From: a bacterium
Lineage (GTDB): Bacteria; SZUA-79; Acidulodesulfobacterales; Acidulodesulfobacteraceae
Reading direction: 5' to 3'
Assembly: GCA_027318865.1 (NCBI GenBank)
Contig: DAHVOJ010000001.1
Coordinates: forward strand, 1-64,000
Length of the DNA: 64,000 nt
Shown here: positions 8,392 through 40,871 of the stretch, in pieces
How positions within the stretch are numbered: the stretch's first letter is position 1
Layout of the letters: each line of letters begins with the position of its first letter
Translations under genes and position numbers: made by a program
The notes under the pieces: model-generated
Seen by the model: only the letters and a program-made list of their open reading frames with translations
What the model was told of the DNA's origin: nothing
Databases searched by the model: none

Positions 8392-8420
8392 AATTTATAT
8401 AACCACCCCACCCTAACGGG

Positions 8421-8577
8421 CACCCCTCCTTAAAAAGGAGGGGAGTTAAAAAATTAAATTTATAAATAATGCCTATTACCGAAGCCTTGCTCCACTCCTT
8501 AAAAAGGAAGGGAGTTAAAAAATTAAATTTATAAATAATGCCTATTACCGAAGCCTTGCTCCACTCCTTAAAAAGGA
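8421..8577. repeat. 69-bp tandem repeat, about 2+ copies, each containing a CTCCTTAAAAAGGA palindrome
   Basis: ctccttaaaaagga recurs at 8426, 8495 and 8564 with near-identical intervening sequence. Confidence 0.93.
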
Positions 8578-8634
8578 ATGCGGTTTAAAAGAGTCAATGT
8601 TTACAAAAAAAATACGGTTATTTAAACCACCAAA

Positions 8635-16503: not shown

Positions 16504-16752
16504 CCTTAAATCACGTTAGAAACTATTAAAACTGCTTAAACATATAATAATACTGGATTCCCGCGTAGGCGGGAAAGTCCTTAAAAGGACTTCACGAGGC
16601 TTGAAAAGCCATATCGCAAGCACGCGTTTATCAAAGCATTTCGTTTAGCATAAAGCCTTTGGCTTTATAAGCGCTAAACTCCATATCTTTGATGCGTGCT
16701 GGGGATGGCATAGCGTTAATCCAGAAAAAGAAATTTCTAACGGTTATTTAAA
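16504..16752. mobile_element. MITE-like element, imperfect TIRs, abutting the MFS start codon
   Basis: Imperfect inverted ends ccttaaatcacgttagaaa / tttctaacggttatttaa; internal ctggattcccgcgtaggcggga; same layout as 25931-26207. Confidence 0.6.
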
Positions 16753-20153: not shown

Positions 20154-20201
20154 AACCACCCCGTCAGGCAACCACCCCGTCAGGCAACCACCCCGTCAGG
20201 C
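20154..20201. repeat. 16-bp tandem repeat aaccaccccgtcaggc x3 at the end of a palindromic element
   Basis: Direct reading of three exact copies. Confidence 0.95.
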
Positions 20202-20377
20202 TATCGCCTGACACCCCTCCTTTTTAAGGAGGGGAGTTAAAAACCTTACCATAGCATTCGATAATAGTAATAGATAAATTCCCGCAGTGTTACCCTCCTT
20301 ACAAGGGATAGGAGTTAAAAACTTAAATCTGCACAGTTGTTATTAGCATTTAAGGCCGCTCCCCTCCTGTTTAAGAT

Positions 20378-25930: not shown

Positions 25931-26207
25931 ACCTTAACTCACCGTTAGAGACTATAAAAATTGATTTAACAAGTTATAAATACTGCATAAACGGCGTGCG
26001 TTTATATCTGCTTTCGCAATATTGGCGTCCGTGTATATCAAAGCATGTCTTTGATACGGACGCCAATGGACACCTTTTGGGTTAAAACCTCAATCCCCGC
26101 ATAGTCATTCCCGCGTAGGCGGGAAAGTTTATGATAAACTTCACGAGACCAAAGGTCGAGAGCGAAGCGTTAATCCAGATAAAAAATCTCTAACGGTGAG
26201 TTAAGGT
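25931..26207. mobile_element. MITE-like element with perfect 21-bp TIRs (family B)
   Basis: accttaactcaccgttagaga ... tctctaacggtgagttaaggt; no ORF inside. Confidence 0.88.
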
Positions 26208-31975: not shown

Positions 31976-33904
31976 TCAATACACTCTGCTTTCGGCGTTA
32001 AGCCTTTTAATAGCTTTTTTTGCGTCAAAATCTTTCATAAGATACAGATAACACGTTCTGACGGGCCTGAATTTAACGTATATGTCGAGCCTGCCTATTT
32101 TTTTAATAGACTTGAAATACGGCGCGTATTTTTTAACAGGGTCGAGCATATATTTGTCGTCCATAATAAACATGGCATTTTCTCCGTTTATTTTATTAAG
32201 GTTCTGCCATAGGTCGTACTGGTTTAAAAAACCGGATATATTATAAATGTTTACGGCGGGCTTGTATCCGCCGTAATAGACGAGTTCGTCGGCGATTGCA
32301 TAATGGTGCGTGAGAATAAAGAGCGGACGATAAGCCGTTTTATAACCATTATAAACGATACGTATATATTTTGCGCTATACCGCCAGCCGAAAAGGTCGT
32401 TCGTTATGTCGGCGGTCGAGGGTTTTCCAGGGATATGCGGTATAAGCGAAAATATCCCGCCTTTTTTGAGCCGCTTTTCTTTATCTATATATCGTATTAT
32501 CCTGCCTACCGGTATGGAATTATAATAAATCTGGTTATACAGAATAAAGGAAAAGAAAAAGCCGGAAAAGAGGGCGAAATAGACGTAGTATTTCAAAATG
32601 AAGTATATGAACCGCCTCTTCCCCTCCTTAAGAAGGAGGGAAGCTTCGGATAAAAGGTGTCCGAATTCAATCCGGATACCTTTTATCTCTCGAAGAAACT
32701 TTTCTTTCCTATCGGTAAGCATGTCCGCAACGTAACCCGCAATAGGAAATGCGGCAAGATAGCCTATATCCGGCCAGTGCACCAATATTCTGTGGGAATA
32801 TCCGTTGACGATAAAAAATAAAAGAATAGGGAGGGAAAGGCAGACGGAAAAGAGAAAGGGTTCGCGGACAGAAAAGGGAGCGGGTTTATTTATTACAAAT
32901 AATATATATATAAAAACTGCGATTAAAAATAAGTATATGAAGGGGGTTATGACCAAAACCTGTCCTAACCAGCCCGCGGCTAAAAGAGATAAACCCGGTT
33001 CGGGACGTGAAAAACCGTGCGAAAGTTGAAACTCGAACGATATAAAATTATGCGTGAAATTCCAGTATATTACCGGCGAAAAAACCAAGAGCGCAACGGC
33101 AAGAGCCATATAAGGATAAAATGTTTTCAGATAACGCCTGTTTCGTTTGGAAACAAGCAGATACAAAAGAATGGAAGGCGGGATAAGCGCGGCGGTATAT
33201 TTGCTTAAAAACGCAAAGCCGAGGGAAATGCCGGCGAGAAGCCAAAAAAACCACCCCGTCGGCCTTTGGCCGACACCCCTCCTTTTAAGGAGGGGAGCTT
33301 TAAAGTCAGATTTATTTATTTCTTCGGAATAAAAAATATCTGTCCCATTTTCTTCCGATTTATTTATTTCCTTATTGCCGTCTGCTTGTTCCAAGAAAGG
33401 GGACAGATTTGAAATCTGTCCCCTTTCTTGCGTTCCATTTTCTTCTACCGCTTTATAAAAAAATATGAAAAATAATAGGGTAAAAAATAACAGCGGGGCG
33501 TCCGGAAGCATCATAACGGACAGAACCATTCCGAATATTACGGCTGACAGGAAAAACAAAAACGAAAAAAAAGCCGCCCGTTTGTTTTTAAACAGAATAT
33601 AAGAAAGGTAATATATAAGAAATCCGTCTAAAAAAGAAAAAATAAGTGCGCCAAGCCTGACGGAAAGCTGGCTTTTGCCGAAAATACCGTCAAAAACATA
33701 TATAATCCAGCCGACAAGCGGGGCATCGTCGAGATAACCCAAAGACGGTTTCAGCGACCATACATAATAATGCGCTTCGTCGTTGCCGAGATTTAAAGCC
33801 GAGGCAAGATGAACGCGAACGATTAAGGCAAAGACCGATATTATAAAAAGATAAATCTCATATTTGAATCTACCTATGTAAGAACTTAATTTTTGCTTGC
33901 TCAA
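31976..33904 (-). CDS. Glycosyltransferase family 39/ArnT-like membrane protein, with palindromic-element-derived inserts
   Basis: LGNDEAHYYVWSLKPSLGYLDDAPLVGWIIY motif; multiple TM helices; in-frame repeats at 32618-32643 and 33251-33430. Confidence 0.88.
   Translation of the reverse strand: MSKQKLSSYIGRFKYEIYLFIISVFALIVRVHLASALNLGNDEAHYYVWSLKPSLGYLDDAPLVGWIIYVFDGIFGKSQLSVRLGALIFSFLDGFLIYYLSYILFKNKRAAFFSFLFFLSAVIFGMVLSVMMLPDAPLLFFTLLFFIFFYKAVEENGTQERGQISNLSPFLEQADGNKEINKSEENGTDIFYSEEINKSDFKAPLLKRRGVGQRPTGWFFWLLAGISLGFAFLSKYTAALIPPSILLYLLVSKRNRRYLKTFYPYMALAVALLVFSPVIYWNFTHNFISFEFQLSHGFSRPEPGLSLLAAGWLGQVLVITPFIYLFLIAVFIYILFVINKPAPFSVREPFLFSVCLSLPILLFFIVNGYSHRILVHWPDIGYLAAFPIAGYVADMLTDRKEKFLREIKGIRIEFGHLLSEASLLLKEGKRRFIYFILKYYVYFALFSGFFFSFILYNQIYYNSIPVGRIIRYIDKEKRLKKGGIFSLIPHIPGKPSTADITNDLFGWRYSAKYIRIVYNGYKTAYRPLFILTHHYAIADELVYYGGYKPAVNIYNISGFLNQYDLWQNLNKINGENAMFIMDDKYMLDPVKKYAPYFKSIKKIGRLDIYVKFRPVRTCYLYLMKDFDAKKAIKRLNAESRVY
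32618..32643. repeat. Palindromic element core inside a CDS
   Basis: cttcccctccttaagaaggagggaag, in frame in 31976-33904. Confidence 0.85.
33251..33297. repeat. Double-hairpin palindromic element (family P) in frame inside a CDS
   Basis: ccaccccGTCGGCCtttGGCCGACaCCCCTCCTTttAAGGAGGGGag. Confidence 0.93.
33392..33430. repeat. 39-bp perfect palindrome (family Q) in frame inside a CDS
   Basis: caagaaaggggacagattt-g-aaatctgtcccctttcttg, 19-bp arms. Confidence 0.95.
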
Positions 33905-34046: not shown

Positions 34047-34261
34047 CCCAAAATTGCCGATAGAAAATTATTTTTCTGGATGAGCCGTCTAAATACCGAC
34101 GGCTTTAAACCGTACCCGCCTGCGCGGGAATGACAATTAAGGAATTTAACTTTTCACCCAACGGGTGTCATTCCTGCGTAAGCAGATATAAACGCACGCC
34201 GTTTATGCAGAATTTATAATATACCGAAACAGTTTTAAATATTTCTATCGGCAATTTTGGG
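34047..34261. mobile_element. MITE (family A), 20-bp perfect TIRs, 5-bp TSD TTTGT
   Basis: tttgt|cccaaaattgccgatagaaa ... tttctatcggcaattttggg|tttgt. Confidence 0.93.
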
Positions 34262-36152
34262 TTTGTAGGTGCTTTATCAATCCGTTAAATCTGTCTTTCA
34301 ATTCCAAAGCGGCGTCGATTTGCGCAAATAAGGCAATACCTTTGCCCGCATCCGCATCCGTGCCTGTCCCGCCGGAGCCGCGTACGGTTAACGGCTCTAT
34401 TTCCTTTTCCGAAGGTTCCTCGAAATATTTTTTCTGATTTAAATAAACGGCGGCGTCCGCTTCGGAATAGTCGTTCAAAGCGGCAAACCTGTTTTCGAGC
34501 CTCTTTAATATAATTTTTTCTTTTTCTTTATCGTCATATATTTTAGAATATACGAATATAAAAATACAGTCTTTTTTATTAAAAGCGTTAATTATTTTTT
34601 CGCGGTGGGCGCGCTTTAAGAATGTAGCATCGAATATTACGCCGCCGCTACAGGCGTTCCCCCCGCCGGCGGCGCCGATACCGCCTGTTCCATATTCTGC
34701 TCCGCTTTCGAATTCTTTCAATCCTTCTTCGAGCATAGTTCCATAAACTTTGACGTTTGCATCGGCGGAATATTTTACGGATTGAACGGCAGAGCCGAAT
34801 AAATTTTGCCTGATTTCGTCGGTAGAAATAACGCGTGCGTAAAACCACTCCGAAAGCAGGCGGGAAAGCGAAGACTTGCCGCTGCCTGAAAGACCGCAGT
34901 TAAGAATGACTGCCCGCTTTTGCGCAAGCGCAAGGTAAAAACCGGCAAGACCGAAATATTTTAAGGCTTTTGCAGGCGCGTATTTACCGGGGGAAAGCAG
35001 GGCTATCTTGGTTCTGACTATCGCCCTGTAGGCTTTAAAAAACGGGATTACGAAAGGTTCGTATTTTGCGTAGGGGGCTATGGATTTTGAATAGTTAAAA
35101 TAGTTTTTATAACAGCCGAAAAAAACCGCGGATTCGTAAAAATATCCGTTAAATTCAAAATCCATAAGCAAAAAAGCGACGTCTAAATATATATCCTGAC
35201 ATCTGTATCTTTCGTCGAATTCGACACAGTCCATAAGACAGATTCCGTTAACGCGGCGCTGGTCCAAAACGGCGATATGCTCCATCCTTAAATCTCCATG
35301 GACGTCGCGGACAAAACCGCCTTCGGCGCGAAGGCGGATAAACTCGGAGAAGAGCGGAGATGAAAGGAACGAGGAATAAGATGCAACCACCCCGTCAGGC
35401 GAAGCCTGACTCCCCTCCTTGAAAAGGAGGGGAGTTTTTTTGCCGTCGAAAAAGGTGCCAGTTTTTTTGCCGTCGAAAAAGGTGCCAGTTTTATTTATTT
35501 TCTGCGTCCATATTTCCTTTATCGTTTCGTAATTGTCTTCCCAGTTGGCTCTGTAAACGTCGTAAGAGCCGAATTTGGAAATTCTTTCGGACGTCCGGGC
35601 GGTTTTGTGAAAAAGATATATTTTTTTGGCAATTTTTTTTAAAATATCCTCTATATTTATATCGGCGTTACCGGGTTCGTCAATTTTACCATGTTTATTA
35701 ATTTTGGCAAATTTGCCGCTTTTTAATATATTGCTTAAAAAACGTGCCGGCTCGACTCTTTTCATTCTGACTAAGACGTCTATAAGTTTTCCGCCTTTAA
35801 AACCGATAAACCGTCTGTCTTTTTTCTGCCTTAGTTCGACTATGTCTATATAAATTCCGGAACAGGATCTTCTGTTCAGGGACAGTTCCTTTTTTGCGAA
35901 AAAAATTCTCTTTTCAAGGGCGGTATAATCGACAAAACCGAAATTTACCGGTTTTTTTTGCTTGTAGGCAAATTTATCGGTCAGATAAACGCGGGATATG
36001 TGGGTTTCGATTGTTTCGGAAGCCGGCAGCCACTCCGGCAGACTATCGTCTGCCTCCCCTCCTTTATAAGGAGGGGAGCTAACCGTTCCATTTATTTTTA
36101 AATCCGTACCCTTTTCCATTATATCATTTTCGGCTGAATCTTTATCTGTCAT
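34245..36152 (-). CDS. Phosphotransferase (APH-like) plus P-loop kinase two-domain protein
   Basis: VHGDLRMEHI APH motif; LNCGLSGSGKSSLSRLLSEW P-loop; C-terminal codons come from a MITE. Confidence 0.85.
   Translation of the reverse strand: MTDKDSAENDIMEKGTDLKINGTVSSPPYKGGEADDSLPEWLPASETIETHISRVYLTDKFAYKQKKPVNFGFVDYTALEKRIFFAKKELSLNRRSCSGIYIDIVELRQKKDRRFIGFKGGKLIDVLVRMKRVEPARFLSNILKSGKFAKINKHGKIDEPGNADINIEDILKKIAKKIYLFHKTARTSERISKFGSYDVYRANWEDNYETIKEIWTQKINKTGTFFDGKKTGTFFDGKKTPLLFKEGSQASPDGVVASYSSFLSSPLFSEFIRLRAEGGFVRDVHGDLRMEHIAVLDQRRVNGICLMDCVEFDERYRCQDIYLDVAFLLMDFEFNGYFYESAVFFGCYKNYFNYSKSIAPYAKYEPFVIPFFKAYRAIVRTKIALLSPGKYAPAKALKYFGLAGFYLALAQKRAVILNCGLSGSGKSSLSRLLSEWFYARVISTDEIRQNLFGSAVQSVKYSADANVKVYGTMLEEGLKEFESGAEYGTGGIGAAGGGNACSGGVIFDATFLKRAHREKIINAFNKKDCIFIFVYSKIYDDKEKEKIILKRLENRFAALNDYSEADAAVYLNQKKYFEEPSEKEIEPLTVRGSGGTGTDADAGKGIALFAQIDAALELKDRFNGLIKHLQTQNCR
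35385..35434. repeat. Family P palindromic element in frame inside a CDS
   Basis: aaccaccccGTCAGGCgaaGCCTGACtcccctccttgaaaaggagggg. Confidence 0.9.
35434..35487. repeat. 27-bp tandem duplication x2 encoding a 9-aa repeat (GTFFDGKKT)
   Basis: gtttttttgccgtcgaaaaaggtgcca x2. Confidence 0.95.
36030..36078. repeat. Family P palindromic element in frame near the N-terminus of a CDS
   Basis: ccactccggcagactatcgtctgcctcccctcctttataaggaggggag. Confidence 0.88.
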
Positions 36153-40705: not shown

Positions 40706-40871
40706 CCCAAAATTGCCGATAGAAAATTATTTTTCTGGATTCCTGCTTACGCAGGAATGACTTCGCAGGTTTTAAGGTCTTCACCCAACGGGTGTCATTC
40801 CCGCGTAGGCGGGAATCCAGTATTTATTTAACTTTAAAGCCATTTTAATGGTTTCTATCGGCAATTTTGGG
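40706..40871. mobile_element. MITE (family A), 20-bp perfect TIRs, 5-bp TSD TATTG
   Basis: tattg|cccaaaattgccgatagaaa ... tttctatcggcaattttggg|tattg. Confidence 0.93.

Follow-up and report, generated by a model that had tools for sequence, protein, structure and literature searches.

Intragenic REPs of the GTAG and CGTC types are known in Opitutus terrae, Thauera, Xanthomonas and other bacteria, where single REPs or REP dimers add 20–82 amino acids to a protein, sometimes twice per gene (PMC3733652). In the recB genes of two Xanthomonas they lie at about the same site, and the Rickettsia palindromic elements RPE-4 and RPE-6 are themselves CGTC REPs. In-frame REPs outside Rickettsia are already published (PMC3733652). 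The terminal repeats of TIRYT transposases share the motif GGGGWSAS (PMC3733652). Subclass 2.1 of the HUH transposases probably corresponds to these TIRYTs, and no REP-like sequences were found near subclass 2.1 genes in the same study (PMC6006769).

We analyzed a 64,000-nucleotide stretch of DNA (the window) from an uncultured acid-mine-drainage bacterium whose assembly spans 1.46 Mb and is 87% complete. Relatives carrying the glycosyltransferase described here are mostly known as MAGs, among them Candidatus Acididesulfobacter diazotrophicus. The related order Ca. Acidulodesulfobacterales has been described from acid mine drainage (PMC6776010). On protein similarity, the window's organism probably belongs to this group. 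We consider it probable that two mobile families of palindromes, Q and P, have built up in dispensable loops of a working GT-C glycosyltransferase while keeping its reading frame, with Q derived from the terminal repeats of a TIRYT and P a REP-like family that often adjoins Q.

In-frame inserts in a constrained glycosyltransferase gene

The initial annotation placed the repeats in frame between transmembrane segments of a glycosyltransferase and quoted the resulting peptide. The reading frame has a TTG start, is open throughout and contains that peptide (Table 1). The product is PMT/ArnT-like, with PMT and PMT_2 domain profiles, a multi-TM fold and an acidic motif in the first external loop, where the alignment of orthologs locates the invariant DE pair, D42 and E43. 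Lysine and arginine counts rise and fall in the pattern of alternating cytosolic and external segments, from which the N terminus and each of the three loops discussed below are predicted to be cytosolic. The AlphaFold model is weak (mean pLDDT 60, built from 25 sequences). Its top structural matches are ArnT (the best), AglB and Pmt4, and insert residues 160–213 have pLDDT below 50. We used only this low confidence and the fold-level match to ArnT, and did not rely on the coordinates.

Table 1. Positions, in the window, of the invaded genes and the elements within them
Feature	Position	Strand	Basis or remark
GT-C glycosyltransferase gene (PMT/ArnT-like), host of the inserts	31976..33904	-	642 aa
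Insert 1, loop 1, residues 157–218 (Q, decayed Q dimer and P)	33251..33436	-	ortholog alignment
Q, 39-bp perfect palindrome CAAGAAAGGGGACAGATTT-G-AAATCTGTCCCCTTTCTTG	33392..33430	.	matches 25-bp core family exactly
Decayed Q-type dimer with internal spacer (GTCAGATTTATTTATT...ATATCTGTCCCATT)	about 33305..33349	.	sequence; intact counterpart in L033
P, two hairpins (GTCGGCC/GGCCGAC and CCCCTCCTT/AAGGAGGGG)	33251..33296	.	
Insert 2, loop 3, Q-like near-palindrome GATAAAAGGTGTCCGAATT...AATCCGGATACCTTTTATC	32649..32687	.	sequence; loop 3 alignment
P-type hairpin adjoining insert 2 (CCCCTCCTTAAGAAGGAGGG, family D1)	32618..32640	.	
Neighboring gene with AAA_33 domain, 635 aa	34245..36152	-	domain profile
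P copy inside the AAA_33 gene, followed by 27-bp tandem repeat	35383..35441	.	
P copy inside the AAA_33 gene, near the N terminus	36025..36085	.	

Insert 1 adds ~180 bp in frame. The double-hairpin P and the 39-bp palindrome Q that had been reported in it are both present in the sequence and free of stops, the arms of Q being 19 nt each and 100% complementary about a 1-nt center. That inventory was correct for Q and P but incomplete. It missed a decayed Q-type dimer between Q and P, which is intact in the nearest ortholog (L033), and a second insert in loop 3 (32618–32687), where a P hairpin again accompanies a Q-like palindrome. The neighboring gene holds two further copies of P that were likewise missed.

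An alignment with 26 orthologs shows conserved sequence except in three hypervariable loops. The comparison with orthologs lacking the insert, which the initial annotation had proposed, sets the junctions of insert 1 at about residues 157 and 218. Anchors included, the loop 1 segment is shortest in L049 and L051, at 13 residues; it is 73 residues long in the window and reaches 85 in other orthologs. The insert was earlier thought to have created the loop, but a short positively charged loop is already present in orthologs, and the insert lengthened it. Within the genus, loops 1–3 often hold Q or P (L033–L038, L040, L042 and L049). In other genera the same loops are mostly short or filled with N/K-rich low-complexity sequence, and Q-like variants occur in L045 and L013. 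Some loop insertions are common by descent, and independent events are therefore fewer than the counts. Loop 1 of L039 (GAAATAAAGGGGTGGTTC) looks as if the beginning of Q had been joined to the final part of P through a common GGGG, and is possibly the deletion footprint of an earlier Q–P insert.

The initial annotation had left room for a pseudogene and for orthologs with the same peptide but no palindrome. None of the 26 aligned orthologs carries the insert peptide without the DNA palindrome. The gene has no stop or frameshift, and dN/dS for the core outside the loops is about 0.1 (0.07–0.13), indicating purifying selection; pseudogene status is ruled out, and the gene is intact and constrained. 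The same observations weigh against the insert being the mark of a decaying gene. That it is an artefact of the source, a metagenome assembly of 121 contigs, is equally hard to credit given related inserts in the same loops of separate assemblies from several sites.

Association of Q with RAYT genes and its genomic distribution

The Q core GGGGACAG fits the TIRYT terminal-repeat motif GGGGWSAS. Repeats of the AATAAAGGGGACAGATTTATTTATT type adjoin RAYT-type genes of congeners (flanks in L102, L103, L104 and L110). The Q-type pairs around these genes are inverted in L104 and L110 and direct in L102 and L103, so the architecture is not uniform. RAYTs of the genus have NHVH, WE and YIELNP motifs and are 245–268 aa long, in agreement with the signature and length of subclass 2.1 (PMC6006769). 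Judged by these sequence features, Q is a putative derivative of terminal repeats belonging to a RAYT/TIRYT-type HUH transposase of subclass 2.1. In the window's own genome, as far as its 87% completeness reaches, we saw a canonical IS200 transposase only and no subclass 2.1 gene. The initial description of an unrelated sequence family stands with respect to the Rickettsia elements; Q is not an isolated new family, however, as it fits a TIRYT terminal repeat.

A RAYT gene lies near an invaded gene in five congeners, 3.5–5 kb downstream of the glycosyltransferase in L033, L035 and L041 and beside the AAA_33 gene in L100 and L106.

Q is not a widely spread repeat. Among 386 genomes searched, the full palindrome is confined to this family, and viral contigs contain no exact match to the 31-bp Q pattern. 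Across 12 genomes of the genus we counted 90 exact copies of the Q end (AAAGGGGACAGAT), which is rare in each of them (1–20 per genome). Based on ortholog coordinates, 24 of the 90 fall in the glycosyltransferase, about 0.1% of the genome, compared with 0.09 expected. The binomial test on these counts overstates independence, since Q ends are paired and some inserts inherited, and because of common ancestry we rejected treating each end as an independent event. Ends within the glycosyltransferase are found in seven of the 12 genomes and lie in the three predicted cytosolic loops.

The coding census was made by scanning stretches around exact matches for ORFs, with ORF length and Pfam used for the main cases; a few sites fall at the ends of ORFs and are ambiguous. 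There are about 66 Q clusters including the window, and roughly a third are in ORFs, nearly all in five genes: the glycosyltransferase (12), its AAA_33 neighbor (5), chorismate synthase (3), folE2 (1) and a NuoB-like gene (1). Most Q copies outside the glycosyltransferase are intergenic. In-frame Q is seen in chorismate synthase of two species, in one case at the same site, and also in folE2 of one species (L157 and L167). In L076, L077, L081, L085, L086, L087, L089 and L181 there are bare 24–25 bp palindromes (GGGGACAGATTTNAAATCTGTCCCC), most of them between genes, whose outer arms do not match. They could be the smallest unit that moves, or a site resembling an operator.

Seven genomes have a RAYT, and by a tally of coordinates 24 of their 56 Q ends are less than 10 kb from it; when the glycosyltransferase is excluded, 14 of 41 are. 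These figures bear on the possibility that permissive loops alone account for the inserts, with any added DNA tolerated and Q and P merely common repeats, and with neither a transposase preference nor local spread. The N/K-rich sequence in the same loops of other genera and the predicted cytosolic position of all three are consistent with that explanation. However, Q is rare and yet has a quarter of its exact ends in one gene, tolerant loops must exist in many other proteins that contain no Q, and Q clusters near RAYT genes outside the glycosyltransferase too. We therefore regard tolerance by itself as improbable. The data fit local spread and permissive loops jointly better than either alone.

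The initial annotation had also called for a search for P and Q inside ORFs with reading-frame statistics, which we ran on the stretches. Of the 24 intragenic Q units, 21 are read in the KGTD frame and one in the GDRF frame. The remaining two, in the window and in L033, use the RGQI frame and probably stem from a single event. The KGTD frame is open for every Q center variant seen, while other frames are closed by some variants. The bias is thus largely explained by selection against the stops that other frames hold.

A further alternative is that the inserts were selected for a function, with the length or charge of the loop tuning the enzyme, with a hairpin acting in mRNA pausing or stability, or with the DNA serving as a protein-binding site. 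The repeated invasion of the same loops across the genus, the dominance of one frame and the intergenic position of bare 25-bp Q palindromes, at least one pair of which is at matching positions in two species (L080 and L083), could be read in this way. In contrast, loop sequence and length vary between close relatives, parts of the insert are decaying (33305–33349), and the frame bias is largely due to stop codons. The elements have no match in Rfam, and the reading as an RNA element was rejected. We hold selected function to be more doubtful still than tolerance alone, and the insert probably has no dedicated function of its own.

Palindrome arms and the P family

The outer arms of Q differ from copy to copy but match within one copy. 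Among 41 non-identical dimers, self-matching arms extend a mean of 4.6 nt beyond the core, compared with 1.8 when left and right flanks were dealt between copies (2000 trials, maximum 2.9), and arms reach 6 nt in 19 dimers versus 1.1 by permutation. In loop 1 of L038, the right Q arm is the reverse complement of the conserved host codons AAAGCGGTGGAAAA. These observations suggest that the palindromes are perfected or extended in place, and the arm symmetry is most simply explained by intrastrand template switching at the hairpin. Intergenic copies might instead have inserted into hairpins that were already there, although L038 is hard to account for in this way.

A course of events consistent with accumulation in dispensable loops would begin with the transposase mobilizing Q in the form of folded single-stranded DNA, in many cases to a nearby site. 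Copies that break genes would be lost, and only in-frame, stop-free copies in disordered cytosolic loops would survive. After landing, the hairpin may be perfected and lengthened by intrastrand template switching, with flanking host codons copied in inverted form. It is a more speculative proposal, and one we would not yet favor, that a landed Q goes on writing in-frame protein by inverted copying of adjacent host codons and that the gene pair is a preferred landing site throughout the genus.

In the AAA_33 gene, the invaded sites are the N terminus and a linker at about residues 215–255. Beside one of its P copies is a 27-bp in-frame tandem repeat (KKTGTFFDG, window 35421–35500). The P core hairpin occurs in 19 copies in the 1.46-Mb genome, compared with none for a reversed-pattern control, and in the stretches examined all P copies beyond the two genes are intergenic. 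P is therefore REP-like in being a short palindrome with many, mostly intergenic, copies. The P core is absent from the RAYT loci of the genus, and P has no linked transposase there. Outside the family, P was found in four of about 163 genomes, some with a non-hairpin interior.

In L212 (1975–2075), a P element lies between two inverted Q-type ends; such a composite unit may explain the frequent adjacency of P and Q. P-related intergenic tandem arrays are built from a repeated 69-bp unit or a repeated 16-bp unit (AACCACCCCGTCAGGC), and are found at 8420–8590 and 20154–20208 of the window. A further palindromic family of the ATTCCCGCGTAGGCGGGAAT type, distinct from P and Q, occurs at 34113–34190, 40739–40818, 16557–16578 and 26107–26128, with CACCCAACGGGTGTC between two copies in two places.

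Comparison with known systems

We find it likely that selfish DNA here lengthens proteins where additions are tolerated, and that in related species it has done so more than once within the same few loops. In-frame palindromic elements are thereby extended to repeats of the TIRYT transposase class and to free-living acidophiles. More than 20 orthologs provide a natural series of empty, minimal, composite and decayed inserts at one locus, which makes both the route from repeat to perfect palindrome and that from selfish DNA to protein open to testing.

The parallel with RPEs drawn in the initial annotation is borne out by in-frame repeats in an intact, constrained gene. Both add tens of residues to functional genes, but Q and P differ in their unrelated sequence, their free-living acidophile hosts and the tie to a known transposase class. 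Intragenic GTAG and CGTC REPs also occur in ORFs as single repeats or dimers, with double insertions and repeated sites. In contrast, Q and P have no unpaired GTAG or CGTC tag and have invaded one gene pair genus-wide and in several loops. No unpaired GTAG head is found beside the Q or P stem in the window, which excludes GTAG membership. CGTC REPs, including RPE-4 and RPE-6, have an unpaired CGTC tag, a stem of 8–9 bp and a CCA tail; the CGTC of P, read by eye, sits in the stem (CGTCGGCC.../...GGCCGAC) and Q has none, so neither belongs to that class. Q dimers that have a spacer resemble REPINs, in that a short repeat linked to a RAYT is present as an inverted pair. However, Q has no GTAG head, its copy number is low, and many copies are bare palindromes without a spacer.

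Q most resembles the TIRYT-associated terminal inverted repeats (TIRtrons; subclass 2.1, RAYT group 1) in its fit to GGGGWSAS, in its location beside RAYTs with NHVH, WE and YIELNP motifs, and in its dispersal as dimers too. In-frame insertion into proteins is not described for published TIRtrons, unlike Q, and dispersed Q copies form perfect palindromes with copy-specific arms. New here are the TIRYT-type repeat as source, a single gene pair that is a hot spot throughout the genus, and the symmetry of the arms.
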